Assembly (NCBI RefSeq): GCF_003001815.1
Contig: NZ_PVMZ01000031.1
Location: forward strand, 1 to 64,000
Reading direction: 5' to 3'
Length of the DNA: 64,000 nucleotides
Origin: Actinoplanes italicus
GTDB taxonomy: Bacteria > Actinomycetota > Actinomycetes > Mycobacteriales > Micromonosporaceae
Shown here: positions 9,742-25,162 of the stretch, in pieces
How positions within the stretch are numbered: position 1 is the stretch's first letter
Layout of the letters: each line of letters opens with the position of its first letter
Notes under the pieces: model-generated
The model's input: only the letters and a program-made list of their open reading frames with translations
What the model was told of the DNA's origin: nothing
Database searches by the model: none
Translations under genes and position numbers: made by a program

Positions 9742-10368
9742 ATGGTTTCCACGCCCACCACCGTCGATGTCTGGGTCGACCCACGCTGCCCGTGGGCCTG
9801 GATCGCCTCCCAGTGGCTGCTGGAGGTCGAGAAGGCTCGCCCGGTCGAGGTGCGCTTCCACATCATGAGCCTGTCGGTGCTCAACGAAGGCCGCGAGGTT
9901 CCCGAGAAATACCGCCAGGGCATGATCGAGGGCTGGGGTTCGGTACGGGTGTGTGTCGCCGCCGAGCAGCAGCACGGCCCGGAGGCGCTGCGCCGGCTCT
10001 ACCTGGCGATGGCCACCCGGATCCACCACGGCAAAGAGGGCCTGCTGCGCGACATGGTGCTCGGCGCGCTCGCCGACGCCGGTCTGCCGGCCGAGCTGGC
10101 CGACGCGGCGGACACCACGGAGTACGACAAGCCGCTGCGCGAGAGCCACCACGCCGGCATGGACCCGGTCGGTGACGAGGTCGGCACGCCGGTGCTGCAC
10201 GTGCCGGGGCCGGACGGCGAGCTGATCGCGTTCTTCGGCCCGGTCATCTCCCCCGCTCCCCGGGGCGAGGCGGCGGCACGGCTGTTCGACGGGGTCCTCG
10301 CCGCCGCGAGTACGGATGGCTTCTTCGAGCTCAAGCGTGCCCGTACCCGCGATCCGATCTTTGGTTGA
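9742..10368 (+). CDS. DsbA-family thioredoxin-fold oxidoreductase (mycothiol-dependent nitroreductase-like)
   Basis: A 208-residue soluble protein with a DsbA-type thioredoxin fold. The active-site region reads VDPRCPWAWIASQW, a CPWA motif with only one redox Cys, as in the mycothiol-dependent Rv2466c-like oxidoreductases of actinobacteria rather than CxxC DsbA. The cis-Pro region is visible as GTPVLHV. Such enzymes reduce nitro or other electrophilic compounds using mycothiol. The start at 9742 follows AAAGGG; an upstream frame from 9691 lacks support. It is first in a likely operon with two exporters under the LysR gene, consistent with a detoxification and efflux module. Confidence 0.85.
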   Translation: MVSTPTTVDVWVDPRCPWAWIASQWLLEVEKARPVEVRFHIMSLSVLNEGREVPEKYRQGMIEGWGSVRVCVAAEQQHGPEALRRLYLAMATRIHHGKEGLLRDMVLGALADAGLPAELADAADTTEYDKPLRESHHAGMDPVGDEVGTPVLHVPGPDGELIAFFGPVISPAPRGEAAARLFDGVLAAASTDGFFELKRARTRDPIFG

Positions 10369-10379
10369 GGGGTTGCGGC

Positions 10380-11282
10380 ATGAGAAACGGCAGCTCTGTC
10401 GTGACCGCGGCGGTGACCGCCCTGGCACCGGCCATCTGGGGCAGCACGTATCTGCTGACCACCGAGCTGTTGCCGCCGGATCGCCCGCTGCTGGCCACCA
10501 CCGTCCGGGCGCTGCCCGGTGGTCTGATCATCCTGCTGTTCACCCGTGTGTTCCCGGCCGGGATCTGGCTGTGGCGGGCACTGGTGCTCGGCACGCTGAA
10601 CATCGGCGCCTTCAACTTCCTGCTGTTCGTGGCGGCCTATCGGCTGCCCGGCGGCGTGGCCGCGATGATCATGGCAGTGCAGCCGATGATCGTGCTGATT
10701 CTGGCGGCGCTGCTGATCGGCGACCGGATCAGACCGGTGCACGTGGCCGCCTGCCTGCTCGGTGCGGGCGGCGTGGTGCTGCTGGTGTTCCGCGGGAACG
10801 CGGTGATGGACACCGTAGGTGTGCTGGCCGCGCTGGCCGCCGCCGTGTGCATGGCGGTGGGGATCACCCTGACCAAGTTCTGGGGGCGGCCGGACGGTGT
10901 GGGGCTGCTGCCGTTCACCGGCTGGCAGCTGACCGCCGGCGGTCTCGTGGTGCTGCCGTTCACGCTGCTGCTCGAAGGTCTGCCCGGCTCGCTGACCGGC
11001 GAGAACCTGATCGGATTCACCTATCTGGTGGTGCTCGGCGCGGTCCTCAGCTACCTGCTGTGGTTCCGCGGGATCGAGCGGCTGCCCGCCCTGGCGGTGT
11101 CCTTCCTGGCGCTGGGCAGCCCGATCGTCGCCACCCTGCTCGGCTGGCTGGTCAAGGACCAGACGCTGTCGCTCGCGCAGGTCACCGGCACCTTGGTGAT
11201 CATCGCGGCGGTCGTGCTCGCCCAGCCACGCCCGGCCCGCACACCGGAACCGGCACCCGAGCCGGTGGCCGGCCGGCATTAG
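10380..11282 (+). CDS. DMT-superfamily (EamA) transporter
   Basis: The 300-residue integral membrane protein has about ten hydrophobic segments arranged as two EamA repeats, with the second repeat beginning around residue 145 (LAALAAAVCMAVGITLTKFW). The N-terminal motif APAIWGSTYLLTTELLPPDRP is characteristic of the family. Members export amino acids, metabolites or drugs, and the substrate is not evident here. ATG 10380 follows GAGGGG. It starts 11 bases after the oxidoreductase stop, indicating an operon. Confidence 0.88.
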   Translation: MRNGSSVVTAAVTALAPAIWGSTYLLTTELLPPDRPLLATTVRALPGGLIILLFTRVFPAGIWLWRALVLGTLNIGAFNFLLFVAAYRLPGGVAAMIMAVQPMIVLILAALLIGDRIRPVHVAACLLGAGGVVLLVFRGNAVMDTVGVLAALAAAVCMAVGITLTKFWGRPDGVGLLPFTGWQLTAGGLVVLPFTLLLEGLPGSLTGENLIGFTYLVVLGAVLSYLLWFRGIERLPALAVSFLALGSPIVATLLGWLVKDQTLSLAQVTGTLVIIAAVVLAQPRPARTPEPAPEPVAGRH

Positions 11283-11312
11283 AACGCGCACCCCCACAAA
11301 GAGAGAGACGAG

Positions 11313-12530
11313 ATGGTCACTCAGACTGAACACCCGCACTCGACCGCGAGGTCATGGCTGGGCGTCGCCGTCATCACCGCCAGCCTGTTCACCTTCGTCA
11401 CCACCGAACTGATGCCGGTCGGCCTGCTGACCGCGGTCAGCGGCGACCTGGACGTGTCGGTGGGCGCCGCCGGACTGATGGTCACCCTGTACGGCATCTC
11501 CGCCGGCCTCGGCGTGCCGTTCCTGGTGGCCTGGACCCGGCGGGTCAACCGGCGCGTGCTGCTGACCGTGCTCCTGGGCGTCCTCGCCGCCGGCAACCTG
11601 ATCACCGCGCTGGCGCCGAACTATCCGCTGGTCCTCGGCACCCGCCTGATCATGGGCTTCGCCAACGGCATGTTCTGGGCCATCGGCGTGAGCATGGCGA
11701 TGCGCATGGTCCCGGGACGGCTCGCCAGCAGGGCGTCCGCGGTGGCGCTGTCCGGCATCTCGATCGCCACGGTGGTCGGCATCCCGGTGGGCACCTTCCT
11801 GGAGGATCTCACCGACTGGCGGACCACGTTCATGATCTGGAGCGGGCTGAGCGTGGTGGTGCTGATCGCGGTCGCCGTGATCATCCCGTCGATGCCGTCG
11901 CAGAACGCGGTCCCGGTCCGCGAGGTCCTCGGCCTGCCGTTCGCCAACGTGGCGCTGCGCACGGTGATGTACGCGGTGACGCTGTACGTGCTGGGTCACT
12001 TCGCGGCGTACACGTTCATCCGCCCCTACGCCGAGCAGAACTCGTCGGCGACCCCGGCGCTGATAGCCGTGCTGCTGATCGTTTACGGCATCGGCGGCGC
12101 GGCCGGCAACTTCATCGCCGGTCACACGGTCACCAAGAATCTGCGCGGCAGCTTCATCGCCGCCTGTGTCGGCCTGGTCGTTGCCATGCTGCTGTTGCTC
12201 ACGATCGGGCACACCGTACCCGGATTGATCGTCGCCGTTGTTCTCTGGGGTGTCTCGTTCGGCGCCGCGAACCTGTGCCAGATCAACATGATGCTGGGCG
12301 CGGCCCCGGACAAGTTCGAGGCCGCCATGTCGATCAACACGCTCGGCTACAACACGTCGATCGCCCTGGGCGCGCTCTTCGGCGGGCTGTTCGCCGACCG
12401 GTTCGGCGTCCCGAGCGCCGTCTGGCTCGGCGTCGGCCTGGCCAGTGCCGCACTGCTGATCACCCTCGCCACGGGCCGGCGCTCCTCCGCCCAGCCGGCC
12501 GACGAGAAGGATCTGGTCCCGAGCAGCTGA
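11313..12530 (+). CDS. MFS efflux transporter (DHA1/AraJ type)
   Basis: The 405-residue protein has twelve predicted membrane segments. It shows the family's N-terminal TTELMPVGLL motif in helix 1 (compare AraJ/SotB/YdhP-type sugar and drug exporters) and the loop 2-3 motif near VAWTRRVNRRVLL. Export by proton antiport is expected. An AAAGAGAGAGACGAG purine tract precedes ATG 11313. It lies 30 bases after the DMT transporter, and a perfect 14-bp terminator follows. The module (LysR, oxidoreductase, two exporters) may serve resistance to an electrophilic metabolite, possibly the product of the adjacent cluster; this last link is speculative. Confidence 0.9.
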   Translation: MVTQTEHPHSTARSWLGVAVITASLFTFVTTELMPVGLLTAVSGDLDVSVGAAGLMVTLYGISAGLGVPFLVAWTRRVNRRVLLTVLLGVLAAGNLITALAPNYPLVLGTRLIMGFANGMFWAIGVSMAMRMVPGRLASRASAVALSGISIATVVGIPVGTFLEDLTDWRTTFMIWSGLSVVVLIAVAVIIPSMPSQNAVPVREVLGLPFANVALRTVMYAVTLYVLGHFAAYTFIRPYAEQNSSATPALIAVLLIVYGIGGAAGNFIAGHTVTKNLRGSFIAACVGLVVAMLLLLTIGHTVPGLIVAVVLWGVSFGAANLCQINMMLGAAPDKFEAAMSINTLGYNTSIALGALFGGLFADRFGVPSAVWLGVGLASAALLITLATGRRSSAQPADEKDLVPSS

Positions 12531-12590: not shown

Positions 12591-13553
12591 TCAGGCGTGA
12601 CCGTCGAAGAGGCTGGTCACCGAGCCGACCTCGAACACCTCGTGCACCGCCCGGGCCAGCAGCGGGGCGATCGACAGTACGGTCAGGGCGGGGAACCGCT
12701 TCTGCGCCGGGATGGGCAGGGTGTCGGTGATGACCACCTCACGGGCGCCGGATCCGGCCAGCAGTTCGGCCGCCCGGTTGGAGAGCACCCCGTGGGTGGC
12801 GGCGACGACCACCTCACGGGCGCCCTCGCCGAGCAGCTGGCGGACCGCCTTGACGATGGTGCCGCCGGTGTCGACCAGGTCGTCGACCACCACGCAGGTA
12901 CGCCCGCGCACGTCACCGACGACCCGGTTGGCGACCACCTCGTTGGGCCGCAGCGGGTCGCGCGTCTTGTGGATGAACGCGAGCGGCCTGCCGCCGAGCT
13001 GGTCGGCCCACTTCTCGGCCAGTTTGGTACGGCCCGCGTCCGGCGACACCACGGCCAGGTCGGCATCGCCGTACCGGTCGCGGATGTGCCGGGCGAGCAG
13101 GCTCTGCGCGAACAGGTGGTCCACCGGGCCGTCGAAGAAGCCCTGGATCTGGGCGGTGTGCAGGTCGACGGTCATCAGCCGGTCGGCGCCGGCCGCGGTG
13201 AACAGGTCGGCGATCAGCCGGGCCGAGATCGGTTCCCGGCCGCGGTGCTTCTTGTCCTGGCGGGAGTACGGGTAGAACGGCATGATCGCGGTGATCTGCC
13301 GGGCACTGGCACGTTTCAGCGCGTCGACCATGATGAGCTGCTCCATCAGCCACGTGTTGATCGGGGCGCCGTGACTCTGCAGGACGAACGCGTCGCTGCC
13401 GCGGACCGACTCCTCGAACCGTACGAAGATCTCGCCGCTCGCGAAGTCGTAGATGTTCTGCGGGGTGAGCGGCACGTCCAGGCACGCGGCCACCCGGTCG
13501 GCGAGCTCCGGGTGGCTGCGGCCGGCGAACAGCATCAGGTTCTTCGTGTTCAT
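12591..13553 (-). CDS. prs: Ribose-phosphate pyrophosphokinase (PRPP synthetase)
   Basis: The 320-residue enzyme makes PRPP from ribose 5-phosphate and ATP. It shows the family signatures: N-terminal [18 protein letters not shown], the ATP flexible-loop region [19 protein letters not shown], the metal-binding [13 protein letters not shown] and the PRPP loop [12 protein letters not shown]. Length matches class I enzymes. It is the last gene of the PsuG-NRPS operon and its start overlaps the psuG stop (ATGA), showing translational coupling. A second, dedicated prs in a biosynthetic operon implies that PRPP or its ribose phosphate supply is limiting for the product. A terminator lies just downstream. 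Confidence 0.93.
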
Positions 13554-14479
13554 CGGCCTGCCTCACGAAGGTGGCGCGCGTGTGCCGCGGCGAGGCGGCC
13601 GCCGACCTCGGCGGTGCTGATCAGCACGGCCATGTTGGCCTGGGCGGAGCGGCCGCCGGTGGCCGCGTCGACGGCGCGCATCAGGTATTTGGTGATCGCC
13701 TGTCCGCGTACGCCGTCTCTCTCCGCTGCGGCGATCGCCCCGGCGATGGCCGCATCGACCTCGTCCGCGTCGATCGCCTCATCCTCGCGAACCGGCGTGG
13801 TGATCAGGAAGGAGCTGCGGTTGCCGAGCGCCCAGTGGTTCTCGACGGCCCGCGCGATCGTCTCGTCGTCGTCGAGCCGCATCGGGCTGCGATACCCGCT
13901 GGAAGTGCAATAGAAGGCCGGAAAATCATCGGATCGGTACGAGACGACGGGCACACACTGCGTCTCGAGGTATTCCAGCGTGAGCCCGAGGTCGAGGATC
14001 TTCTTGGCGCCGGCGCAGACCACGGCCACCGGGGAACGCGTGAACTGGATCAGGTCCGAGGAGATGTCCATGCTCCGCTCGGCGCCGCGGTGCACACCAC
14101 CGATGCCGGCCGACGAGAAGAACGTGATGCCGGCCAGTTCGGCGGCCACCAGCGACGACGCGACGGTGAGCGCACCCCGGCGGCCCTGTGCCAGCACGAC
14201 CGGCAGGTCCCGGCTGCTGACCTTGGGAATGCCCGGGGTGGAGGCGAACCGTTCGATGTCGTCGTCGGTCATCCCCACGACGATCACGCCGTCCTCGACG
14301 GCGATGGTGGCGGGCACGGCGCCGCCGGCCCGGACGGCCTGCTCGACCTTGCGGGCGGTGGCGGCGTTGTCCGGGTAGGGCAGGCCGTGGGTGATGACGT
14401 TGGACTCGAGGGCCACCACCGGCCGCCGCTCGTGCAGCGCGTCGGCGACCTCTCCGGTGAAACGCAGGGGCACGGGCAT
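13550..14479 (-). CDS. psuG: Pseudouridine-5'-phosphate glycosidase (PsuG/IndA family), candidate C-glycosynthase
   Basis: A 309-residue member of the indigoidine-synthase-A/PsuG family. Visible family features are [14 protein letters not shown] with Glu25, [13 protein letters not shown], the phosphate-binding [13 protein letters not shown] and the catalytic-lysine segment [19 protein letters not shown] (Lys159/160). The reversible family reaction joins or splits a C-C bond between C1 of ribose 5-phosphate and a uracil-like base. In minimycin, showdomycin and alnumycin pathways homologues build the C-glycosidic bond. Here it follows the NRPS by one base (TGACATG) and overlaps prs, so all three are coupled. 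A catabolic role is less likely because no PsuK kinase is adjacent. Confidence 0.9.
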
Positions 14480-14480
14480 G

Positions 14481-14720
14481 TCAGTTCGCCTCCGAGCCGT
14501 AGTTCGGGACCTTGCCGAGGATGTGCCGCCGGTTGACGATCTCCGGGATGTAGACCTGGTCGTTCCAGGCCTCCTTGTCGATCGGTTCGAGGGCGATCGA
14601 CACGACGTTCTCGTCGCAGCCGAACGCGTCGGTGATCGCGCTGGTCACGGCGGATACCAGCTGGGACTGCTGGTCCGCGCTGAGCGGGACCGGGAAGAAC
14701 TTGATGTTGATGTGCGGCAT
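14481..14720 (-). CDS. Possible internally initiated tautomerase (4-OT/PptA family), in frame with NRPS 3' end
   Basis: An ATG at 14720-14718 is preceded by GGAGGAGATC, a near-perfect ribosome-binding site with 5-base spacing, inside the NRPS frame. Translation from it gives a 79-residue protein beginning Met-Pro-His-Ile-Asn-Ile-Lys-Phe-Phe. 4-OT enzymes require a free N-terminal Pro1 (after Met removal) as general base, which only internal initiation, or cleavage, could supply. The NRPS without this part would be 1265 residues, close to free-standing BpsA-type enzymes. Either a recent gene fusion by stop-codon loss or dual expression explains it. Confidence 0.6.
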
Positions 14721-17700
14721 GATCTCCTCCGGGACGATGCGGGCGGGGTCGAGACGGCGGCCGATGGCGGCGGTCAGTTCGCCGAGGTCGGCGCGCAGCA
14801 GCGAGTAGTGGTCGGCGGCGAGGTCGACGACCGCCGGGGCGGCGCTCGCGTAGCCGCTGCTGTGTTCCAGGAACGAGTAGTCGTCACCGCGGGCCTTGAA
14901 GATCGTGATCGGGGCGGTGATCCGGCGCTCGCGCAGTTCCCGGAAGGTGTAGCTGAACTCGAACGTGGTCCGGGTGACCCGGATGATCCGCCGGATCAGC
15001 TCGGTGTCGAGTTCCGGCAGGTGGCGGTGGACGAAGGCGACGAGGCTGTCGTCGCCGGTCACCTCGGCGAGGCCGCGTTCGACCAGGGGCCCGCTGATGG
15101 TGCCGGTGAAGACCGACAGCAGGATCGTCACGAACGCCGGGTTGCCGTATCCGGCGCTGCGGTCGACGGCGGCGCCGCGGACCTCGGGTGCTCCGGGGGC
15201 GATCAGGAACAGGTGCTCGACCTTGTCGCCGAGCTGTTCGAGCTGGTAGGCGGTCTCGAAGGCGACCCGTGCGCCGAACGAATAACCCCACAGGGTGTAC
15301 GGCCCGTCGGGCTGGATCTGTTTGATGGCGCGGACGTCCTGCGCCGCCATCTCCCGGATCGTCGGGTACGGCTCCTCGCCCGCGTTGATGCCGTGTGCCT
15401 GCACCCCGTAGAACGGCCGGTCGGTGACCGCCCCGGCCAGCGGGCGCAGGTTCATGGTGTAGCCGCCGAGGCCGGGCCAGCAGAAGACCGGCGTGCCGGT
15501 CCCGTCGGCGCGCAGCGGCACGAGCCGGCTCGACGTCGTGTCGTCGCCGTCCACCCGCTGCGCGAGTTTCTCGATCGTCGGCGACTCGAACAGCACCTGC
15601 AGCGGCAGGTCCGTCGCGAACTCGCGGTTGATCCGGTTGATGAGCGCCACGGCGATGAGCGAGTTGCCGCCGGTGGCGAAGAAGTCGTCCTGCACCGAGG
15701 CGGTGTCACGCTTCATCGCCTTCTTCCACAGCTCGGCGATGCGGCGCTCGGTGCCGGTGCGCGGCGCTACGAACGGCCGGTCCGAACCGCCGGCGGTGAT
15801 GGTGTCGTCGGCGGACAGCGCCTTGACGTCGATCTTGCCGTTGGCGGTGGTCGGCAGCGCGTCGAGAACGATCACCTTGTTGGGGATCATGTAGTCGGGC
15901 AGGAAGTTGACCAGGTCGTCGCGGATCATCTCGGCGGGGCCGCGCATGTGCACGACATCCTCGTTCATGCCCTCGTGGCGGCGCTGGTCGTCGCTGACCC
16001 GGCCGCCGAGGAAGAAGTAGGACGGCCCGGTCGCCCGTCCCGCGTCACGCAGGATGCCGTCGACGACCCGTGCCGACGGCAGGTCGTCGCCACTGCGGGA
16101 GCTGTAGCCCGACGACATGAAGCCGAGGTTCAGGTCGTTCATCGAGAGCCTCTGGAGCGTACGGCCGAGGTCGATGTAGCGTCGCCAGCCGTGCGGGGTC
16201 CGGCTGATCACCGAGACGCCGAAGGCCGCCCGGTCGTAGACCGCCTGGTTGATGGCGATGACGTGGCGGCGCTGGATCAGTTCGGCCGAGACCGGTTCGA
16301 GGCGCTCGCCGTCGAACGCGTACTGCCCGGCCGGCAGGCCGTCGATCCGGCCCGGGTGGGCCTGCACGTAGAGGTCGACGGCGTCGTCCCACCGCCGTCC
16401 GGTGTGGGCGGTCAGCGCGAACGTGCCGAGGTACCAGTCCTCCGGCGCGATGTCGAGGCGGGCGTGTACGTCCGGGTCGAACGTCCCCTCGGTGAGGTCC
16501 AGGCCGTAGCCCGGGAGGATCTGCTGCAGCAGCCCGACCATGTGACCGGTCTCGATCTCCAGGACCTCGCGGATGTTGTTCTTGTACACCGGCTCGATGG
16601 CCCGTCGCTTGCCGGCGAAGTGCAGCAGCACGGTGGGTTCGGCGGTGTCCGGCAGGTAGGCCACCCGGACCAGCCGGTGCTGCGCCGGATGGTGGTACCA
16701 GATTCCCGGCGGCACCGCTTTCACGCCGCTGATCTGCAGGTACAGCTGGGTGGCGTACAGCGAGCCGGGTGACGCGTAGGCGTACTTGGGCAGGAGCCGT
16801 TCGGTGCTGGTGTGCGGTCCGAGCCAGCGCAGGATCTCGCCGAGATCGGCGAGGTCGATCTCGGCCGGGTTCCGCGGTCCGGTCGCGGCGGGTGGCTTTT
16901 CGGAGAGCAATTGTTGTACGTCCGCGCGCGTGACCGGTTCTGCACCGTCGTAGAAGCGGTACGTCTTGCGCGCGAACGCGAGCCGCCGCTGCCTGTCGGT
17001 GGCCTCGCGGCCGGGCAGGTCGACGGTGTCCCGGCCGGCCAGCTCGTGCGGCTCACGCAGCCCGGCGGCGGCCAGCTGTGCCTTGACCTGGAGCTTGCTC
17101 GCCTTCGACTGGTGGTGTGCGCCGTGGTTGCCCTGGTCCATCAGGGCCGCCTCTTTCGGGTTCAGCTCCACACAGGCGATGAGATTCTGGAAGCCGGTGC
17201 GGGTGTCGTTCTTGACCAGGACCGCGGCGTGCCGCACCCAGTCGTGGGTCTCGATGGCGAGCTTGATCTCGTCCAGCTCGACCCGGAACCCGCGGAGTTT
17301 GACCTGGTTGTCGCTGCGGCCGAGGAAGGCGACGGTGCCGTCGGGGTTCCAGTGGGCCAGGTCGCCGGTGCGGAACAGGATGCCGTCACCGGACGGGTGG
17401 GGCACGAACCGTTCGGCGGTGAGGTCCGGCCGGTGCAGATACCCCCGCGCTACCTGGATCCCGCCGATGTGGAGCTCGCCGACCTCACCGACGCCCAGCC
17501 GGTTGCCGCGCTCGTCGAGGACGAGGTAGTCGGTGGCGTGCACCGGGGTGCCGATCGAGACGGCGTTCGGGCCGTCGGTGATGATCTCGCGGCTGACGGT
17601 CAGCGCCGAGGTGTTGATCGTGCACTCGGTCGGCCCGTACAGGTTGATCAGCGCGCTGCCGGGCATGGTGTCGAGGAACTGCTGCGCCAGCGGCCGGGGC

Positions 17701-18515
17701 AGTGCCTCGCCGCCGGTGAACAGCTGGGTGAGCGAGGTGCATTCCGGCAGCCGCTCGGTGTCGAGCAGGGCCTGCAACAGCGTCGGCACGCACTGGAGCG
17801 TCGTGACGTCGTACGCCCGGATGGTGTCGATGAGCCGCTCGGCGTCGCGGTAGATGCCGGGCGTGCCCATCACGACGCGGGCGCCGCAGGCGGGTGCCAG
17901 GATCTCCCACTGGGCGGCGTCGAAGCTCATCGGGGTCTTCTGCAGCACGGTCCGGCCCGGTCCGAGCCGGTACACGCCGGCCAGCCACCGCATCTGGCTG
18001 ACGATGCTGCGGTGCTCGATCATCACGCCCTTCGGCGTGCCGGTGCTGCCGGAGGTGTAGATGACGTACGCCAGGTCGTGCGCCGCCGGGCCGGTGGACG
18101 GCGGGCCGGAACCCTCGGCGTCGGCGAGCGTCACGATCGACGTCCCGTGCGGCGCGAGGGCGACCAGACGGTCGGCGAGCTCCGGCATCGTGACGATGAC
18201 GTTCGTGCCGGAGTCCTCGATCATGTACCGCAGGCGTTCCTCCGGGTACTCCGGTGACAGCGGCAGGTAGGCGCCGCCGGCGAACAGCACGCCCCAGGCG
18301 CCGATCATCAGGTCCGGTGACGGTTCGACGAACAGGCCGACGCAGTCGTCCGGGCCGACACCGAGGTCCTGCAGGCAGCCGGCCAGCGCGGTGGACTGCC
18401 GCAGCAGCTGCCGGTAGGTGAGGTGGTCGTCGCCGTGGACGACGGCGATGTCGTCCGGCCGGGCATCGGCCTGCCGGGTCAGCAGGTCGGGAAGGCAGTC
18501 GTTGAGTGGGCTCAT
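14481..18515 (-). CDS. Indigoidine-synthetase-type NRPS (A-Ox-T-TE) with C-terminal PptA-like tautomerase domain
   Basis: The 1344-residue synthetase has an adenylation domain (A3 motif [11 protein letters not shown] at 153-163; A8 region ~400-420) that is interrupted by a nitroreductase-like oxidation domain (~510-845) before A10 (NGK, Lys894). A carrier domain (GGNSL, Ser952) and a thioesterase follow (GYSFG, Ser1079; His1236 in DHYSLL). This is the BpsA/IndC layout, which cyclises and oxidises L-glutamine; glutamine is inferred from architecture, not from the specificity code. From Met1266 onward 79 residues match the 4-oxalocrotonate tautomerase family, PptA type. The start is ATG 18515 behind GGGGAAT; a frame from 18554 is less likely. 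Confidence 0.92.
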
Positions 18516-18617
18516 TCGATTCCCCAAACGCCGGGCGCCCACGAGCCGCACCACGGGCGGCCGGGCGCGCGAATGCGGAAGCAGCTCATCGGCTGCTCCG
18601 CGGGTGTGAACAGAGCA

Positions 18618-18655
18618 CCGGCGCCGGCGGCAACGGGGGCTGCCGCCGGCGCCGG
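18618..18655 (-). terminator. 15-bp hairpin between wrbA-like gene and NRPS
   Basis: A perfect 15-bp stem (CCGGCGCCGGCGGCA / TGCCGCCGGCGCCGG) with an 8-base loop lies five bases after the flavodoxin stop codon. No U-tract follows on the transcribed strand. It could be an intra-operon attenuator, an mRNA-stability element or a partial terminator with a separate NRPS promoter at ~18520-18615. Confidence 0.6.
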
Positions 18656-18659
18656 AGGG

Positions 18660-19316
18660 TCAGCGGGGCGAGGTGGCCGTCAGGCCGTGCCGCAGTGCTG
18701 CGGCGATCTCGACCATCCGCTGGGCCTGGTAGCCGATGGCCGCCAGGTTGTCGTCGGTGACGTTCTCGGCGAGCCGTCCGGGTACGGCCTTCGGGCCGGA
18801 GACGGAGCTGACGCCGTACGGGTTGCCGTTGCTGGGGGCGAGCTGGACCGGGTCGGCGACGCCGGGCGGCACGATGATCGCGCCCCAGTGGTAGAAGACG
18901 TTGTTGAGCGACAGGATCGTGCTCTCCTGGCCGCCGTGTGCCGCACCGGTCGAGGTGAACGACGACATCACCTTGTTGAGCAGGCCGTTGCGGGCGTGCA
19001 GCGGCCACGCCTGTTCGATGAAGTGCTTCAGCGGTGCGGCGAGCAACCCGAACCGGCCCGGTGTTCCCCACAGCACCGCGTCGGCCCAGTCCAGGTCGTC
19101 GGGGCTCGCCAGTTCGACGTCGCCGATCGCGGCCGTGTTCTCCGACCACGCCTCGGTCCACTCCGTCATCGACGGCGCCGGGGAGCCGTCGACGAGCTCG
19201 GGAATGCGACGCAGGCGTACCGATGCCCCGGTCTTCTCCGCCGCCTCGGCGGCCGCCACGGCGAGCCGGTGCACGTTGCCGGTGCCCGAGTAGTAGACGA
19301 CGGCCAGGTTGGTCAT
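18660..19316 (-). CDS. WrbA-like NAD(P)H:quinone oxidoreductase (flavodoxin fold)
   Basis: The 218-residue protein has a flavodoxin fold with the FMN phosphate loop YYSGTGNVHRLA at residues ~8-19 and the WrbA-type segments WGTPGRFGLLAAPLKHFIEQ and FTSTGAAHGGQESTIL. WrbA proteins carry two-electron reduction of quinones with FMN and NAD(P)H. In this operon it may reduce the oxidised aminopyridone/quinone intermediate made by the NRPS, or protect against redox cycling of a blue-pigment-like product; this is inference. Its start overlaps the UPRT gene stop by four bases (ATGA), so the two are coupled. Confidence 0.87.
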   Translation of the reverse strand: MTNLAVVYYSGTGNVHRLAVAAAEAAEKTGASVRLRRIPELVDGSPAPSMTEWTEAWSENTAAIGDVELASPDDLDWADAVLWGTPGRFGLLAAPLKHFIEQAWPLHARNGLLNKVMSSFTSTGAAHGGQESTILSLNNVFYHWGAIIVPPGVADPVQLAPSNGNPYGVSSVSGPKAVPGRLAENVTDDNLAAIGYQAQRMVEIAAALRHGLTATSPR

Positions 19317-20014
19317 GGGGTTCCTCCCGCGGTGGGTACGAGGTCGGTGCCGAACCAGCGGTCGCCGAAGTCGCCGATGCCGGGCAGCATGTAGGCGTTG
19401 TCGTTGAGGCGCTCCTCGACGGACGAGGTGACCATCCGTACGCCCGGATTCCGCTCGCGGACGGCGGCGATGCCCTCCGGCGCGGACAGCAGGTTGATCA
19501 TGACGATCCGGTCCTCGGGGACACCCCGGCCGGTCAGCACACCGATCGCGGCCAGGGCGGTGCCGCCGGTGGCCAGCATCGGGTCGAGCAGCAGCACATG
19601 CCGTTCGGCGATGTCGGTGGGCAGTTTCGCGTAGTGGAGGTGCGGCTGCTTGGTCGCCGGGTCCCGCTGGATCAGGATCTTGCCGATCCGCACGGCCGGG
19701 ACGACCGAGCGCAGCCCGGCCTCCATGCTCTCGCCGGCGCGGGCGATGGCGACGCCGCAGAACGGGGGCCCGATCCGCAGCCCGTGGTACGTGCGCCCGA
19801 CCGGGGTCTGCACGTCGTACGGCTCGAACGGCAGCAGCTCCAGACCTGCCTCGACGAGCTGCCGGATGATCCGGCCCGACGTGCGCACGAACTGGTCGCG
19901 GTCGGCGTGCCGGTCCCGGATCACGGTGTGCAGGGCGCGGAGCTGATTGGTCTGCGGCAGCAGGTGCACCGCCTCGCGGACTCCGGTGGTGGTGTGTGCC
20001 ATCGCCGGGCTCAC
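19313..20014 (-). CDS. upp: Uracil phosphoribosyltransferase
   Basis: The 233-residue enzyme (229 if started at ATG 20002) has the complete UPRT signature set: IARAGESMEAGL, the RDPATKQPHLHYAKLP segment, the PRPP loop LLLDPMLATGGTA, and the uracil-binding C-terminus MLPGIGDFGDRWFGT. It normally converts uracil plus PRPP to UMP. Placement between a TrpF-like barrel and a flavodoxin, in one operon with a PRPP synthetase and PsuG, suggests that a uracil-like base is phosphoribosylated here, either as a biosynthetic step or to salvage/resist a pyrimidine analogue. The choice of GTG 20014 or ATG 20002 is unresolved; both overlap or abut the upstream stop. Confidence 0.88.
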   Translation of the reverse strand: MSPAMAHTTTGVREAVHLLPQTNQLRALHTVIRDRHADRDQFVRTSGRIIRQLVEAGLELLPFEPYDVQTPVGRTYHGLRIGPPFCGVAIARAGESMEAGLRSVVPAVRIGKILIQRDPATKQPHLHYAKLPTDIAERHVLLLDPMLATGGTALAAIGVLTGRGVPEDRIVMINLLSAPEGIAAVRERNPGVRMVTSSVEERLNDNAYMLPGIGDFGDRWFGTDLVPTAGGTP

Positions 20015-20703
20015 CCCTGCCGGGTGTCGGCGGCGATCGCGGCGAACGCCTTGCGGGCCTGCTCGACGAACCGGCGGACCTTGGCGCGGTCCTTGCGCCT
20101 CGTCGCGTTCTCCAGGCCGGTGTGCGCGTCGACGGCCGCCGGGCGGACCGCCTCGATCGCGGCCGCGACGTTGTCCGGGTTCAGGCCACCGGCCAGCATG
20201 AGCGGGCGCGGCGACAGGCGTACCAGCTCGGCACTGATGTCCCAGTCGTGCACCAGGCCGGTGGCACCCTTGGCGCCGGTCGCCGGGTTGAAGGTGTCGG
20301 TGATGAACATGTCGACGAACTCGGCCGCACCGTCGACCACGGCGGTCAGCTCGGCGATGTTGCCGGTCTTCACCACCAGGCTCTTGAGCAGGTAGAGGTC
20401 CGGCGCGATGCGACGCAGGCGGCGCAGTTCGGCCGGGGTGATGTCGCCGTGCAGCTGGATGGCGCCGACGCCCATGCCGGCGCAGAACGCGGCGATCTCG
20501 TCGGCGTCGGTCAGGTAGGTGATGATCACGCCCTTGTGCTCGGGCTGGATCCGCTTGATGATCGCGGCCGCGTCGGCCTCGGAGAGGTCCTCGTTCTTGG
20601 CGGGCAGCCGCAGCGCGAAGCCCAGCCAGTCCGCTCCCTCCTCGATGATCAGGTCGGCCTCGGCCTGGTCGATGATTCCGGCTACCTGGATCAAACCCTG
20701 CAT
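20011..20703 (-). CDS. TrpF-like (phosphoribosylanthranilate isomerase-family) barrel lacking the catalytic Cys
   Basis: A 230-residue (beta/alpha)8-barrel of the TrpF family. The C-terminal phosphate-binding signature LMLAGGLNPDNVAAAIEAV is intact, and the acid Asp is present in ITDTF before the KGATGLVHDWD segment. However, the N-terminal KICG motif that carries the general-base Cys of TrpF reads IQVAG, with Ala8 at the Cys position. Normal Amadori isomerisation of phosphoribosylanthranilate is therefore doubtful. In an operon full of ribose-phosphate enzymes it may act on another phosphoribosyl or C-ribosyl phosphate substrate. It overlaps upp and follows the DJ-1 gene by nine bases. Confidence 0.85.
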   Translation of the reverse strand: MQGLIQVAGIIDQAEADLIIEEGADWLGFALRLPAKNEDLSEADAAAIIKRIQPEHKGVIITYLTDADEIAAFCAGMGVGAIQLHGDITPAELRRLRRIAPDLYLLKSLVVKTGNIAELTAVVDGAAEFVDMFITDTFNPATGAKGATGLVHDWDISAELVRLSPRPLMLAGGLNPDNVAAAIEAVRPAAVDAHTGLENATRRKDRAKVRRFVEQARKAFAAIAADTRQG

Positions 20704-20712
20704 CTCGGTCTC

Positions 20713-21393
20713 CTAAAGGTGCTTGAGCTCGCTGACGACCTGCTCGGCGACCAGGGCGGCCGACGCCGGGTTCTGTCCGGTGATCACCCGCTGGTCGTTC
20801 TCGGTGTGCGCCACGTAGTTCGGCGACTTGGCGTGCCGGGCGCCCCGCTTGATCAGCTCGTCCTCGAGCAGGAACGGCATGACGCCGACGAGGCCGAGCG
20901 AGTGCTCCTCCTCGTTGGTGAAGGAGCTGATCCGCTTGCCGTCGATCAGGTACGAGCCGTCCGGCAGACGCAGGTTGAGCAGGCCGGCCGGGCCGTGGCA
21001 GACCGCCGAGACGACGCCGCCGCGCCCGTAGACACCGACGGCCAGCCGGGCCAGATCGGGCGAATCAGGGAAGTCCCACATGGCGCCGTGGCCGCCGACG
21101 TAGAAGATCGCCGCGTAGTCCTCGGCGCCGACCCGCGCGGCCGGCCGGGTGGCGGCCAGCTTGGCCTGCGCCGTCTTGTCGGTGAGGAAGGCGACCACCT
21201 CGGGTTCGTCCTCCTCGCCGTCGAAGACGACGGCCGGTGGTTCGCCGCCCTTCACCGACACGAAGTCGACCTCGTGCCCGGCCGCGGTGAACACGAAATA
21301 GGGGTGGGCTGCCTCGGACACGCTGTACCCCGTGCGGTCGCCGGTGTCGCCGAGAACGTCGTGACTACTGACCGCCAGAAGAATTCGAGCCAT
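20713..21393 (-). CDS. DJ-1/PfpI (Hsp31-like) class I glutamine-amidotransferase-fold protein
   Basis: The 226-residue protein has the DJ-1/PfpI nucleophile elbow VSAVCHGPAGLL with Cys near residue 128 and the YVGGHGAMWDF motif of the Hsp31/glyoxalase III branch. Family members act as glyoxalases, protein or nucleotide deglycases, or amidases. In this operon it could hydrolyse or hydrate a cyclic imide/dicarbonyl intermediate or scavenge reactive aldehydes; this is inference. The ATG at 21393 is preceded by GGAGGGAAACA on the coding strand. The upstream hydrolase gene is 65 bases away. Confidence 0.87.
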   Translation of the reverse strand: MARILLAVSSHDVLGDTGDRTGYSVSEAAHPYFVFTAAGHEVDFVSVKGGEPPAVVFDGEEDEPEVVAFLTDKTAQAKLAATRPAARVGAEDYAAIFYVGGHGAMWDFPDSPDLARLAVGVYGRGGVVSAVCHGPAGLLNLRLPDGSYLIDGKRISSFTNEEEHSLGLVGVMPFLLEDELIKRGARHAKSPNYVAHTENDQRVITGQNPASAALVAEQVVSELKHL

Positions 21394-21458
21394 TGTTTCC
21401 CTCCATTCACCTCAATGCGGGTGGGCGCTTTCCTCCAGCGCCCACCCGTTTTCTCCGG

Positions 21459-22238
21459 TCAGGCCTTTCCGAGGAATTCGCCGACCAGCTTCATGAAGTC
21501 CTGCGGCTGCTCGAACAGCACCATGTGGCCGCTGTCCATCTCGATGTAGCGGGAGTTCGCGATGCCGGCGTGCAGTTCCCGGGAGTGGTGGGTCGGGACG
21601 GCGGCGTCCGGGAAGGCGGCGACCACGAGGGTCTCGGCGCGCACCTTGGCGAGCAGGTCGCTGATGTCGACGCGGACCAGCAGCTCGAGCTGACGCAGAC
21701 GGCCCGACGACGGGCTGAGCTCGGCGCCCAGCGTGTCGATCTCCTCCAGGCTGTCCAGGCTGTTGAGGTACTGCGGGCTGAACGCGGTGCTGGTCAGCAC
21801 CCGCCCGAACGCGACCGGATCGTGGCGCTGGCTCAGCGTCAGGCCGATCAGGTTGCGCATGTACATGTCGGTCTTGACCAGGCCACCGATCGGGACGAGG
21901 CGGCGGATCTGGTCGGGGCGCAGGGCCGCGGCCGCCGCCACGACGGCGCCGCCGAGCGAGAAGCCGATCAGGTCGACCGGCGTGGTGCCGTAGTCGTCGA
22001 TCACCGCGTTGACCTGCTCAGCCAGCACCTCGACGGTCAGCGGGGCACCGTCGTCCTCGGCCGCCTCACTGCCGGACAGGTCGGGCAGGATCACCGTGTG
22101 GCGCTCGGCGAACTCCTCGACCAGGTGGCCGAAGGCGCTCTGCCCGCCCTTGCCGACTCCGTGCACCAGCACCACGACCGGCCCGGACCCGGTCACCGTG
22201 TACTTCACCCGTGCATTTCCCACGGACACCGTACGCAT
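21459..22238 (-). CDS. Alpha/beta hydrolase, first gene of the operon
   Basis: The 259-residue enzyme has the alpha/beta-hydrolase pattern: oxyanion segment VVVLVHGVGKGGQSAF, nucleophile elbow GFSLGG (Ser near 100), a candidate acid Asp in AAFPDAAVPTHHS, and His in DSGHMVLFEQP. No signal peptide is present, so it is cytoplasmic. ATG 22238 follows AAAGGAGATCC, which is better than the longer frame from 22277. It is the first of eight same-strand genes and its upstream region carries paired inverted repeats. Substrate unknown; ester, lactone or amide hydrolysis in the pathway is possible. Confidence 0.85.
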   Translation of the reverse strand: MRTVSVGNARVKYTVTGSGPVVVLVHGVGKGGQSAFGHLVEEFAERHTVILPDLSGSEAAEDDGAPLTVEVLAEQVNAVIDDYGTTPVDLIGFSLGGAVVAAAAALRPDQIRRLVPIGGLVKTDMYMRNLIGLTLSQRHDPVAFGRVLTSTAFSPQYLNSLDSLEEIDTLGAELSPSSGRLRQLELLVRVDISDLLAKVRAETLVVAAFPDAAVPTHHSRELHAGIANSRYIEMDSGHMVLFEQPQDFMKLVGEFLGKA

Positions 22239-22274
22239 GATGGATCTCCTTTTCTCGTTTCTCTGTATTGGCTC

Positions 22275-22328
22275 CATGCTGACACGGGAAAAGCTGACGC
22301 GAACCCCTCAGCATGTTGCATGGCAACA
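22275..22328. promoter_or_regulatory. Paired inverted repeats upstream of the biosynthetic operon
   Basis: CATGCTGA (22275-22282) and TCAGCATG (22308-22315) form a perfect 8-bp dyad. An adjoining TGTTGC-ATG-GCAACA (22314-22328) forms a second, 6-bp-arm dyad. Both lie between the hydrolase start and the LuxR-type regulator gene's 3' end, where the operon promoter is expected. Confidence 0.55.
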
Positions 22329-22393
22329 AGGGGAAACAAATGCTTTCTCCGGGCATGCGAAAGGCCCGGGCGAGCCCGGGTCGAATGTGGAGT

Positions 22394-23392
22394 TCAGAGG
22401 TCGAGAAGACCCTGTTTCGCGGCGAGATAACCGGCCTGGAAACGGCTCTGTGCACCCATTTGTTCCAGCACCTCGGCGATGTGCCGCCGACAGGTCCGCA
22501 CCGACACCCCGATGCGGCGGGCGATGCTCTCGTCACGCATGCCCTCGGCCAGGTAGTAGATGATCGCCCGGCGCACGTCGTCGCGCAGGACCCGCCCCTC
22601 GGAGCGGGAGGTGCTCTCGCCGTGGAAGGGTTTCGCCCGGCTCCAGATCTGCTCGAACAGGACGCCCACCGCGGCGGCGACCTCCGGCTGACTGACCAGG
22701 ACCGCTCCGCAGCGGTGCAGGACGAGGAGCATCTCCTGGTCGATGACGCAGAGGTTGGTCCAGAGCTTCTCGACCGTACGGATCTGCCCGCCGCCCGCCG
22801 TGACCGCGGCGGCCTGCTCCTGCACGTCACCGTGATGGCGGGCCGCGTGCTGATGCAGCACGCACAGCCGCACCCCGTCGTTCGCCGCGAAGGGCGACCA
22901 CTCGAACCGCCGGGCGGGCTCGGGGTCCGGGCCGCACATGACCAGGACCTCCTTGCGGGCGCCGGCGATCCGGTCGCGCACCAGCTGCCGGGCGGTGTCC
23001 GGGTCGGCGATCGCGTCGATCAGGCCGTCCTGCCGGTTGCGGTGCTCCATGGTGGCCTTGTAGACCGCCATGAGCCGGTCGAACTCGCCGGAGATCCGCC
23101 CGATCCGCTGCTGCGCCTCGCGGATGCCGGACTCCAGCGGCCGGATCAGCGTCGACGCCGCGACGTCCGGCCGTAACACCGCCAGGCCGCCGTCGCCCGG
23201 GACCGGCCGCACCAGGCGGGCCTCGGTCAGCGTACGGATGGCGCGGCGCGCACCGTCCGGGCCGAACTCGCGTTCCAGTGCCGCCAGGTCGAGCAGATCC
23301 CGTTCCAGGATCCGCCGGTAGACCGTCAGCAGTTCCTCGTCGACCACCGGCAGTGCCGGCGCATCATCATGGACCGTGTCGTGATCCCGCAT
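22394..23392 (-). CDS. LuxR-type response regulator-like transcription factor with TrmB-like N-terminus
   Basis: The 332-residue protein ends in a GerE-type HTH (AIIYYLAEGMRDESIARRIGVSVRTCRRHIAEVLEQMGAQSRFQAGYLA), preceded by a phospholipase-D/TrmB-like sensor region (~130-265). The N-terminus has a winged-helix-like segment (LERDLLDLAALEREFG, ARRAIRTLTEARLV). This arrangement is common among cluster-situated regulators in actinomycetes. It sits directly upstream of, and co-oriented with, the PsuG-NRPS operon and is the most likely pathway-specific regulator. Its own promoter region contains 22-bp-spaced CCGTACT repeats. Confidence 0.85.
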   Translation of the reverse strand: MRDHDTVHDDAPALPVVDEELLTVYRRILERDLLDLAALEREFGPDGARRAIRTLTEARLVRPVPGDGGLAVLRPDVAASTLIRPLESGIREAQQRIGRISGEFDRLMAVYKATMEHRNRQDGLIDAIADPDTARQLVRDRIAGARKEVLVMCGPDPEPARRFEWSPFAANDGVRLCVLHQHAARHHGDVQEQAAAVTAGGGQIRTVEKLWTNLCVIDQEMLLVLHRCGAVLVSQPEVAAAVGVLFEQIWSRAKPFHGESTSRSEGRVLRDDVRRAIIYYLAEGMRDESIARRIGVSVRTCRRHIAEVLEQMGAQSRFQAGYLAAKQGLLDL

Positions 23393-23506: not shown

Positions 23507-23870
23507 CTCCCGTGCCGACCCGCGGCTTGCGGGCGGACACACCTCACCACGCAGCCCGGCAGAGTAGCTCGCGTGGTGACCTGCGGCTTGCAGGCGGGCA
23601 CACCTCACCACGCAGCCCGGCAGGGTAGTTCGCGTGGTGACCTGCGGCTTGCGGGCGGGCACACCTCACCACGCAGCCCGGCAGGGTAGTTCGCGTGGTG
23701 ACCTGCGGCTTGCGGGCGGGCACACCTCACCACGCAGCCCGGCAGAGTAGTTCGCGTGGTGACCTGCGGCTTGCAGGCGGGCACAGGTCACCACGCAGCC
23801 GACCGGAACGCCTCGCGTGGTGATGTGTGGTGCGGATCGGACCGCGGACCACCACGCGGCGCGGTGCGGG
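23507..23870. repeat. 61-bp tandem repeat array with 9-bp inverted arms
   Basis: About five units of period 61 (GCGTGGTGA at 23571, 23632, 23693, 23754, 23815) follow one degenerate leading unit. Each unit contains GCGTGGTGA and TCACCACGC as a 9-bp inverted repeat around a G/C-rich centre, then a conserved linker GCAGCCCGGCAGGGTAGTTC. The last two units diverge. The array fills the gap between the LuxR-type and SARP regulators. Linkers are near-identical, so this is not a CRISPR array. No gene is supported in the gap. Confidence 0.85.
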
Positions 23871-24001: not shown

Positions 24002-24310
24002 CGGACAAATGACGGAGTGGTCTTCGCAATAGTTGCGGGACCGCCGTGACCGCAGACACCCAGAGCGATCCCGTGTAGACTCCGAGTGACTGAGGATATC
24101 GATGCTGCCCATTGGCATGCACCGCGATCGACATGCGGCCGATGGTATGGAACGGGGGCTCGCGCAACGTCATGTGACATCGTCTTCGCAGGTGAGACAC
24201 ATCAATGACGATGCGCTCCCCGGCTTCGCATCCATTTTTGATTGCCACTGCCGGGCGCGGATATCCAGGTCAGCAATTCACATCCGGAAAAGTAAGGATT
24301 GAGCTGCCGC

Positions 24311-25162
24311 ATGCATCCTACGGGAACCAGCACCCACAAGGAATCGGTTGACATCGGCGTTCTAGGCCCGATTCGGGTCGAAATCCGGGGCACGTCACTG
24401 GTGCCCTCCGCGGGAAAACAACGGCAACTGCTCGCATTACTTGCGCTGCGTTGCAAACAAATCGTGCCGGTGCCGGCTCTGATGGAGGAACTCTGGGGCG
24501 ACGCCATCCCGCGCACCGGCCCGACCACCCTGCAGACGTACATCATGCAGTTGCGCAGGCTCATCGCCACGAGCCTGCCCGCCGGTGGCCCGAACGCCAA
24601 GGACGTGCTCGCCACCGCCTTCAACGGGTACCAGCTCGACCTCGAACCCGGCGGCTTCGACCTGCACGAGTTCGAGCGGCTGGCCGAGGCCGGTGAGCGT
24701 GACCTGGACCGCGGCCACCCCGCCGAGGCGTCCGCCCACCTGAACGCGGCCCTCGCCCTCTGGCGCGGGCCCGCCCTGATCGACGTGCCCGTCGGCCGGG
24801 TCCTCTCCCTCGAGATCATCGGGATGGACGAGGCCCGCATGCGCGCCGAGGAGCAGCGCATCGTCAGCGATCTGGCGCTCGGCCGGCACGCCCAGCTGAT
24901 CCCCGACCTGCGCAGGCTGGTCGCCCAGCACCCGATGCACGAGAACCTCAGCGCCCTGCTGATGATCGCCTTCCAGCGCATCGGCGCCGAGTGGCGAGCG
25001 CTGGAGGTGTTCCGCACGCTGCGCGCCACCCTGCGCTCCGAGCTGGGCGTGGAACCCTCCAACCACCTGCAGCGACTCCACCAGGCGCTGCTGGCGAAGG
25101 CGCCCGAGCTGTCCGCGGTCGCCGGCCTGCACCTGGCCAGATCCCGGTCCCCCGCGTTCTGA
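24311..25162 (+). CDS. SARP/AfsR-family transcriptional activator (OmpR-like wHTH plus BTAD)
   Basis: The 283-residue protein has an N-terminal winged HTH (DIGVLGPIRVEIRG, then SAGKQRQLLALLALR, LMEELWGDAIPRTGPTTLQTYIMQLRRLI) and a bacterial transcriptional activation domain from ~95 onward (FDLHEFERLAEAGERDL, ALALWRGPALIDV). It has no ATPase domain, so it is the short SARP type that activates secondary-metabolite operons. It is transcribed away from the LuxR-type gene across the repeat array, and it marks the likely edge of the biosynthetic cluster. A TTG at 24299 is an alternative start; the ribosome-binding site (AAGG) is weak for both. Confidence 0.88.
   Translation: MHPTGTSTHKESVDIGVLGPIRVEIRGTSLVPSAGKQRQLLALLALRCKQIVPVPALMEELWGDAIPRTGPTTLQTYIMQLRRLIATSLPAGGPNAKDVLATAFNGYQLDLEPGGFDLHEFERLAEAGERDLDRGHPAEASAHLNAALALWRGPALIDVPVGRVLSLEIIGMDEARMRAEEQRIVSDLALGRHAQLIPDLRRLVAQHPMHENLSALLMIAFQRIGAEWRALEVFRTLRATLRSELGVEPSNHLQRLHQALLAKAPELSAVAGLHLARSRSPAF

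Follow-up and report, generated by a model that had tools for sequence, protein, structure and literature searches.

The window analysed here is a stretch of 64,000 nucleotides of Actinoplanes italicus (contig NZ_PVMZ01000031.1), in which the following genes and features were identified:

9742..10368, + strand, Rv2466c-like (DsbA-type) protein, probable cluster edge (PF22234, 8.3e-84)
10401..11282, + strand, EamA/DMT exporter, probable cluster transporter (PF00892)
11313..12530, + strand, MFS exporter, probable cluster transporter (PF07690)
12591-13553, - strand, PRPP synthetase, second genomic copy (NF002844, above cut-off)
13550-14479, - strand, PsuG/IndA-type C-glycosynthase (PF04227, 2e-112)
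14481-18554, - strand, single-module nonribosomal peptide synthetase (NRPS) A-Ox-T-TE-Tau, one protein of 1357 aa
14481..14720, - strand, predicted nested in-frame tautomerase with its own start codon (79 aa, MPHINIKFF...; PF01361)
14724..14730, - strand, internal Shine-Dalgarno (SD) sequence GGAGGAG before the predicted nested tautomerase
18660..19316, - strand, WrbA-like NAD(P)H:quinone oxidoreductase (NF002999, 4.2e-38, slightly below cut-off)
19313-20014, - strand, uracil phosphoribosyltransferase, UPRT (PF14681, 9.9e-73)
20011..20703, - strand, TrpF-like barrel, catalytic Cys absent (Ala8), Asp136 retained
20713..21393, - strand, DJ-1/HchA-type protein with CHGP motif (PF01965)
21459..22277, - strand, alpha/beta hydrolase, enol-lactonase/RutD-like (PF00561; TIGR02427 and TIGR03611 below cut-off)
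22394..23392, - strand, LuxR-type regulator (PF00196)
24299..25162, + strand, SARP regulator (PF03704, 3.4e-42)

The eight packed genes and the LuxR and SARP regulators that a sequence-only reading had named at this locus all have family matches, and GC content per codon position agrees with coding on the assigned strands. The tight packing is borne out by three gene junctions with a 4-nt overlap. The genes placed within 12591-23392 by that reading are indeed there, but these limits are too narrow, as the EamA, MFS and Rv2466c-like genes (9742-12530) were omitted. The order of these three genes is identical in Dactylosporangium roseum (L026), and the Rv2466c-like gene adjoins the EamA gene there and also in L042, L043 and L046. 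Among 47 loci with a TrpF-like gene (described below), an EamA homologue was found in 26 and an MFS homologue in 16, with an identity of merely 33-35% in about ten of the latter; the LuxR-type gene occurs in five, including the window. Once the conserved neighbours are included, the cluster would extend from about 9.7 to 25.2 kb. No sigma-70-like promoter and no terminator were found between 22200 and 24400.

The Ox domain of the NRPS was assigned by similarity to other such synthetases, having no Pfam match of its own. The A-domain code, read by eye from the translation, is DAWQFGLINK (L-Gln), as is also given for the Streptomyces albus homologue in a passage of PMC3992020. The PRPP synthetase is 64% identical to a frame of 339 aa elsewhere in the same genome (L065). 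In alignments to the PsuG chains 4gij and 4gim, the PsuG protein has a lysine at the position occupied by Ala in PDB 4gim. The substrate of PsuG is ribose 5-phosphate, not PRPP, and hence the "PRPP-handling set" that had been seen in this locus fits only the PRPP synthetase and the UPRT. The latter is 65-70% identical to the UPRTs of five minimycin-type loci (L112-L115, L120), only 34% identical to the other UPRT of its own genome, and retains the GIGDFGDR stretch of solved UPRTs, which is involved in uracil binding; a strict PRPP-motif pattern missed 10 of 51 UPRT rows. It appears more likely that these two enzymes feed UMP for self-protection. Relatives of the DJ-1 protein include ThiJ/PfpI, glyoxalase III and Hsp31.

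The TrpF-like protein is a beta/alpha barrel with the fold of phosphoribosylanthranilate isomerase (TrpF), in which a Cys and an Asp are the catalytic residues. It has the fold, the phosphate-loop motifs and the catalytic Asp in common with TrpF, but Ala stands in place of the catalytic Cys. This replacement (Ala8) is found in all 43 family rows covering that position, and Asp136 is retained in 46 of 46, whereas other TrpF relatives taken for comparison have the Cys in 19 and the Asp in 20 of 20 cases. The family column nearest to Arg36 of T. maritima TrpF holds Glu or Asp. The protein may have lost catalysis. This barrel is the truly additional core element relative to known sets. In the open-licence literature no link of phosphoribosylanthranilate isomerase with a C-nucleoside was found, which is weak evidence.

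The 47 tabulated loci with a TrpF-like gene represent 46 distinct ones, L017 and L049 being one record as judged from length and position on the contig; L019, which on the same grounds is one record with L059, lies outside the table, and L055 and L061 (30% identical) were left out. The complete eight-gene set was called in eight loci, including the window, and seven of the eight genes (PRPP synthetase optional) in 15; these loci span several actinobacterial families, although the counts overstate independence because many loci are close relatives. UPRT and NRPS were each called in 46 loci and PsuG in 45. The remaining UPRT (L039) and NRPS (L139) were unseen by the ORF caller and recovered by tblastn, and where PsuG is missing, in two loci, the available sequence stops inside or just past the NRPS gene. 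In the short L055 the ORF caller gave no genes, and tblastn recovered UPRT and TrpF-like. Given its recurrence across these loci, the gene combination exceeds chance. Among 392 Streptomyces genomes the TrpF-like family was found in 13 at E<1e-120, the next match being at 4e-16; in 12 of these an Ox-NRPS gene lies at most 7 kb from the TrpF-like gene, and in the thirteenth the two halves are on two contigs. The 65 NRPS places of the Streptomyces sample comprise 13 of the TrpF type versus five of the minimycin kind.

The minimycin (oxazinomycin) cluster (minA-D, minT) has in common with the present one an A-Ox-T-TE-Tau synthetase, a PsuG-type C-glycosynthase and a UPRT, and the EamA and MFS proteins may correspond to its exporter MinT; the relevant part of a review (PMC8724604) gives MinA as A-Ox-T-TE-Tau and MinD as a UPRT for self-resistance. 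The earlier view that the further phosphoribosyl enzymes and the tautomerase belong to no known pathway therefore holds for the TrpF-like protein and the PRPP synthetase, but not for the UPRT and the tautomerase, which are minimycin parts. Also beyond minimycin are the WrbA, DJ-1 and hydrolase genes. Conversely, the minimycin cluster has a HAD phosphatase and a DUF4243 oxygenase (MinC domains), and the cluster described here has neither. Both are present in all five minimycin-type loci, none of which has a TrpF-like gene, and both were absent from all 47 TrpF-like loci as searched by BLASTP rather than by profiles over every frame; no HAD phosphatase was found among the window's cluster genes. 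The DUF4243 model (PF14027), which recognises genes of the minimycin type (3.7e-42 and 9e-33), gave no match in the A. italicus genome or in the 14 control genomes of that search. In 15 other cluster-bearing genomes it gave partial matches in nine; there were 10 rows, with a coverage of 72-112 out of 340 positions and a best value of 1.3e-8. The shared NRPS-Tau, PsuG and UPRT could mean that the cluster makes minimycin itself, with the oxygenase encoded elsewhere in the genome. This reading was rejected, and is extremely improbable, because the genome is without a PF14027 match where the same search was positive in other genomes.

The showdomycin cluster (sdm) likewise has a PsuG-type enzyme, and a trpF homologue near it is mentioned in a passage of PMC13055916. 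As summarized in part of PMC8724604, the showdomycin NRPS functions reside on separate proteins, in contrast to the single protein found here, and a phosphatase, SdmB, takes part in the pathway. The showdomycin locus was not found, since no PsuG match turned up around any of seven weaker TrpF relatives from Streptomyces, for one of which the neighbourhood spanned only 8 kb.

The tautomerase previously counted as an operon member is present, but not as a separate frame: its 79 codons make up the 3' end of the NRPS frame. Of 38 fused synthetase genes, 33 have an in-frame ATG, GTG or TTG codon followed by Pro at the start of the tautomerase part. An SD sequence of at least 5 nt precedes 28 of these 33 internal starts; for in-frame ATG/GTG/TTG codons of these genes the figure is 4.2%. 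Where the start codes for Val the codon is GTG in 7/7 cases (background 35%), and where it codes for Leu it is TTG in 2/3 (background 3%). Columns -11 to -8 vary least of 60 columns while the encoded residues differ (K/E/Q/P and E/D/A/V), and the NRPSs showing this conservation share 53-72% identity with the one in the window. A further four fused genes, which look alike, all carry GTG, and AGG occupies -11 to -9, with an SD of 4 nt. The internal start codon is absent in five of the 38 genes, in four of which the tautomerase is truncated; in the fifth (L050) it is lost (CTG) though the tautomerase is full-length. A Pfam match and a Pro, here right after the predicted start codon, are shared with the 4-oxalocrotonate tautomerase superfamily, but the coding sequence lies in frame within a larger NRPS gene. 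Because the catalytic proline of this superfamily is N-terminal, its amine being used for catalysis (PMC5818174, in part), we infer a nested gene that yields a separate tautomerase. The review describes Tau, in the part concerned, as a domain of MinA (PMC8724604), and no nonribosomal peptide synthetase with internal translation initiation was found in the open-licence literature, again weak evidence. In minimycin- and indigoidine-type synthetases, the part known as the "tautomerase domain" is predicted to be a nested gene, with the catalytic proline only in the short product; if true, the design of MinA-type constructs would change.

Alternatively, the internal start could be a relic of a free tautomerase gene that was fused to the NRPS gene, the old SD and start persisting and only the fused domain being at work. 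Free tautomerase genes, most of them with an SD, do adjoin related NRPSs, and the five losses of the start codon would also suit this explanation. We consider it possible but rather unlikely, as the SD columns of the linker are the least variable while amino acids change, start loss mostly coincides with truncation, and an internal proline cannot give the N-terminal amine used by the superfamily (same part of PMC5818174).

We propose, with moderate confidence in the pathway as a whole including the internal start, that the genes form a C-nucleoside cluster of the TrpF type, a kind that is sister to the minimycin clusters. The NRPS would convert L-glutamine to an aminopyridinedione that otherwise dimerises to indigoidine, and the tautomerase, mainly as a separate protein from the NRPS-internal start, would aromatise it. 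PsuG would then link the aromatised ring to ribose 5-phosphate via a C-C bond. The Cys-less TrpF-like barrel, replacing HAD phosphatase and DUF4243 oxygenase, would work on the 5'-phosphorylated intermediate, which WrbA, DJ-1 and hydrolase may tailor or protect. PRPP synthetase and UPRT would increase the UMP pool as self-resistance, and EamA and MFS would export the product. To our knowledge, no product has been assigned to any TrpF-type cluster. With at least 46 distinct loci, mostly in actinobacteria and in dozens of soil bacteria, and a TrpF-derived protein in place of phosphatase and oxygenase, this family of antibiotic-like clusters suggests that a class of ribosylated heterocycles awaits exploration. 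Of the new C- or N-nucleoside suggested from the sequence alone, the C-nucleoside is the best reading and the N-route is disfavoured; the whole set is not described in the literature passages found.

The genes could instead serve indigoidine or indochrome formation, the NRPS making indigoidine, PsuG ribosylating pigment or monomer, and the rest giving stress protection. Indigoidine clusters with IndA, such as S. albus J1074 cluster 9, have a Gln-specific NRPS, IndA, tautomerase, transporter and phosphoribosyltransferase in common with the present one, as listed for the S. albus "indigoidine" cluster in part of PMC3992020; its reported IndB-like gene sets it apart, as the IndB HAD phosphatase was not found here. 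According to the same part of that paper, this cluster, with IndA- and IndB-like genes and a free tautomerase, gave blue colour with the NRPS gene under ermE*p, and 46 of the 65 Streptomyces NRPS places have no PsuG in the stretch examined. Blue colour from an over-expressed NRPS alone, however, tells little about the remaining genes, and a pigment would presumably not need conserved TrpF-like, UPRT and PRPP synthetase genes, which makes this explanation unlikely. An N-nucleoside route, with UPRT adding the phosphoribose of PRPP to the pyridone, an Amadori shift by the TrpF-like protein and a secondary role for PsuG, is prompted by PRPP synthetase, UPRT and TrpF-like together, which recall the TrpD-TrpF order, and by the position of UPRT after TrpF-like in locus maps. 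We regard it as quite doubtful, since the UPRT retains GIGDFGDR and closely resembles UPRTs of loci without TrpF-like, and the TrpF-like protein is without the Cys base.

Highly tentative, too, is a variant in which the TrpF-like protein opens the C-ribosyl furanose of the aminohydroxypyridine (quinone-methide type) and isomerises it; the resulting 1-aryl-1-deoxyribulose 5-phosphate would be a carbon counterpart of the Amadori product of the tryptophan pathway. Ring closure onto the neighbouring OH or NH2 would give a fused furo- or pyrrolopyridine, and the NRPS gene would be a two-enzyme gene. The TrpF-like protein would replace the phosphatase here because it needs the 5'-phosphate, and the family would, if this were true, make a new scaffold instead of a plain C-nucleoside.

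A TrpF/PsuG pair in Micromonospora (L023) adjoins transketolase-like, RpiR, ABC and PfkB genes and is therefore more likely catabolic.

The packed set of PsuG, NRPS, PRPP synthetase, UPRT, TrpF-like, WrbA, DJ-1 and hydrolase genes with LuxR-type and SARP regulators, as described in the sequence-only reading, is present in full:

Genes of the window cluster
9742-12530: EamA, MFS and Rv2466c-like genes
12591-13553, minus strand: PRPP synthetase
13550-14479, minus strand: PsuG/IndA
14481-18554, minus strand: NRPS (1357 aa; AMP-binding, PP-binding, thioesterase and tautomerase model matches)
18660-19316, minus strand: WrbA-like flavoprotein
19313-20014, minus strand: UPRT
20011-20703, minus strand: TrpF-like barrel
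20713-21393, minus strand: DJ-1 protein
21459-22277, minus strand: alpha/beta hydrolase
22394-23392, minus strand: LuxR-type regulator
24299-25162, plus strand: SARP

The proposed span of 12591-23392 holds the eight packed genes, but is too narrow: the order of the EamA, MFS and Rv2466c-like genes (9742-12530) is matched in Dactylosporangium roseum, so the cluster is wider than first stated. A tandem array (23517-23800; 61 bp x 4.7 copies, 95% matches) with inverted arms GCGTGGTGA/TCACCACGC lies between the LuxR and SARP genes, and the SARP gene adjoins a large protein (25375-28770) that carries fibronectin III and Ig-like repeats and weakly matches a metallopeptidase.

Lying between the two parts of the A domain, the NRPS oxidase stretch is matched by no Pfam model, but 61 of 392 Streptomyces genomes contain relatives. 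The A-domain code, read by eye at the usual positions, is DAWQFGLINK. Passages of PMC3992020 report this code for L-glutamine in a S. albus homologue, and describe a S. albus cluster with IndA, IndB-like, tautomerase, transporter and phosphoribosyltransferase genes that turned blue upon promoter insertion. Minimycin, according to passages of a review (PMC8724604), needs MinA (A-Ox-T-TE-Tau), MinB (C-glycosynthase), MinC (HAD phosphatase plus DUF4243), MinD (UPRT, self-resistance via the UMP pool) and MinT. Since tautomerase and UPRT are common to this set and the window cluster, they are ordinary components here. For showdomycin, a trpF homologue is mentioned nearby in passages of PMC13055916.

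Both the UPRT and the PRPP synthetase are second genomic copies (34% and 64% identical to the other copy, respectively), and the UPRT shares 65-70% identity with its counterparts in minimycin-type loci. A uracil-loop pattern fits each of the 51 clustered UPRT rows, and ten miss the strict PRPP-motif pattern. The simplest reading, by analogy with the review (PMC8724604), is that the UPRT would confer self-resistance via UMP, with extra PRPP being supplied.

A TrpF-like search (four-row alignment against genome_contigs, 84,980 species) yielded 38 loci, all but one at 62-88% identity. Together with order relatives L017 and L018 and 40 Streptomyces NRPS neighbourhoods as sources, 47 TrpF-like loci (46 distinct) were tabulated. 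UPRT and NRPS were each called in 46 and PsuG in 45; the uncalled UPRT and NRPS were recovered by tblastn, and in the two loci lacking PsuG the available sequence stops in, or just past, the NRPS. One kind of accessory set, that of the window, consists of hydrolase, DJ-1 and WrbA: all eight genes occur in 8/47 loci, and seven (PRPP synthetase not demanded) in 15/47. The other consists of OYE (12/47) and/or nitroreductase (9/47). Neither is found in, for instance, most Microbispora and the Micromonospora loci; PRPP synthetase (18/47) accompanies either kind. The window locus belongs to a known kind, the NRPS-PsuG C-nucleoside clusters, as a widespread and apparently uncharacterised variant.

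Microbispora corallina carries two TrpF-type clusters (L037, L042), one with all eight genes, the other without DJ-1, WrbA and hydrolase on a contig beginning 1.9 kb upstream of its TrpF-like gene. The two non-actinobacterial records, L055 (Oceanospirillales MAG) and L058 (Oxalobacteraceae), have TrpF-like and UPRT at about 56-64% identity, which suggests inter-phylum transfer. Genes for a methyltransferase (11/47), S-adenosylmethionine synthetase (5/47) and PfkB kinase (6/47), noted in loci L024, L029, L039, L040, L044, L045, L107 and L109, suggest methylated variants; the synthetase and kinase genes are also seen next to NRPSs that lack PsuG.

The TrpF-like model matched 13 of 392 Streptomyces genomes at E<1e-120 (next match 4e-16), with an oxidising NRPS at most 7 kb away in 12 and the halves on two contigs in the 13th. 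UPRT was found in 13/13 short loci of these genomes, and in 0/10 around weaker TrpF relatives. In Micromonospora, a distant TrpF relative with Tyr at the Cys column adjoins transketolase-like, RpiR, ABC transporter, PsuG and PfkB genes (L023:7326-17843). The NRPS search of the 392 Streptomyces genomes gave 67 rows at 65 places, all inspected (40 + 24 + L029): 13 TrpF-type, five minimycin-type, one of another PsuG kind, and 46 without PsuG within the fetched stretch, some stretches being ended by contig ends. The single other kind (L183, Streptomyces G620) reads UPRT-EamA-NRPS-tautomerase-PsuG-HAD, without TrpF-like or DUF4243.

HAD or DUF4243 was found in 0/47 TrpF-like loci (BLASTP, 1e-5), PF14027 had no match in the genome of the window, and none of the six loci with a DUF4243 homologue (L111-L115, L120) has a TrpF-like gene. 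Five of the six are of the minimycin kind (PsuG, UPRT and HAD present); L120 encodes a HAD-DUF4243 fusion, as MinC, and L115 a protein of 613 aa that shares 90% identity with this fusion. The NRPS of L111 (Streptomyces G656) has a fused tautomerase beside a DUF4243 gene, and PsuG and UPRT are absent from the 20 kb fetched.

An unexpected prediction on top of this cluster variant is that the tautomerase is a nested gene within the NRPS gene. Its putative start reads ...GGAGGAG-ATC-ATG-CCG, Met-Pro being at NRPS residue 1279; enzymes of the tautomerase superfamily work with an N-terminal proline (passages of PMC5818174). Among 77 NRPS genes, the tautomerase is in frame in 38, in a separate frame in 24 and unmatched in 15. 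The codon preceding Pro is start-type in 33 of the 38 fused genes (ATG 24, GTG 7, TTG 2), with an SD match of at least 5 nt upstream of 28 and at least 4 nt of all 33; the background, before in-frame ATG/GTG/TTG codons of the same genes, is 4.2% for at least 5 nt. The binomial value computed for this excess takes no account of kinship between the genes. Of 60 upstream columns, -11 to -8 (AGGA) vary least, and still do with eight close Microbispora-type rows taken out, although the residues encoded there vary (K/E/Q/P and E/D/A/V). Of the five fused genes lacking a start codon (three Micromonospora, L039 and L050), four have a tautomerase shortened to 50-55 residues; that of L050 (CTG) is full length. 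The 25 loci fetched once the start rule was known contained four fused genes, all with GTG and AGG at -11 to -9, the SD match being 4 nt only. A quick-method NRPS tree places all 38 fused genes on the same side of a branch (SH-aLRT 98), along with four free and two absent tautomerase cases, so the internal start signal is old. Passages of PMC5818174 describe a tautomerase motif appended to indigoidine synthetase and those of PMC12766979 discuss fused versus discrete forms; an internal start is mentioned in neither set of passages.
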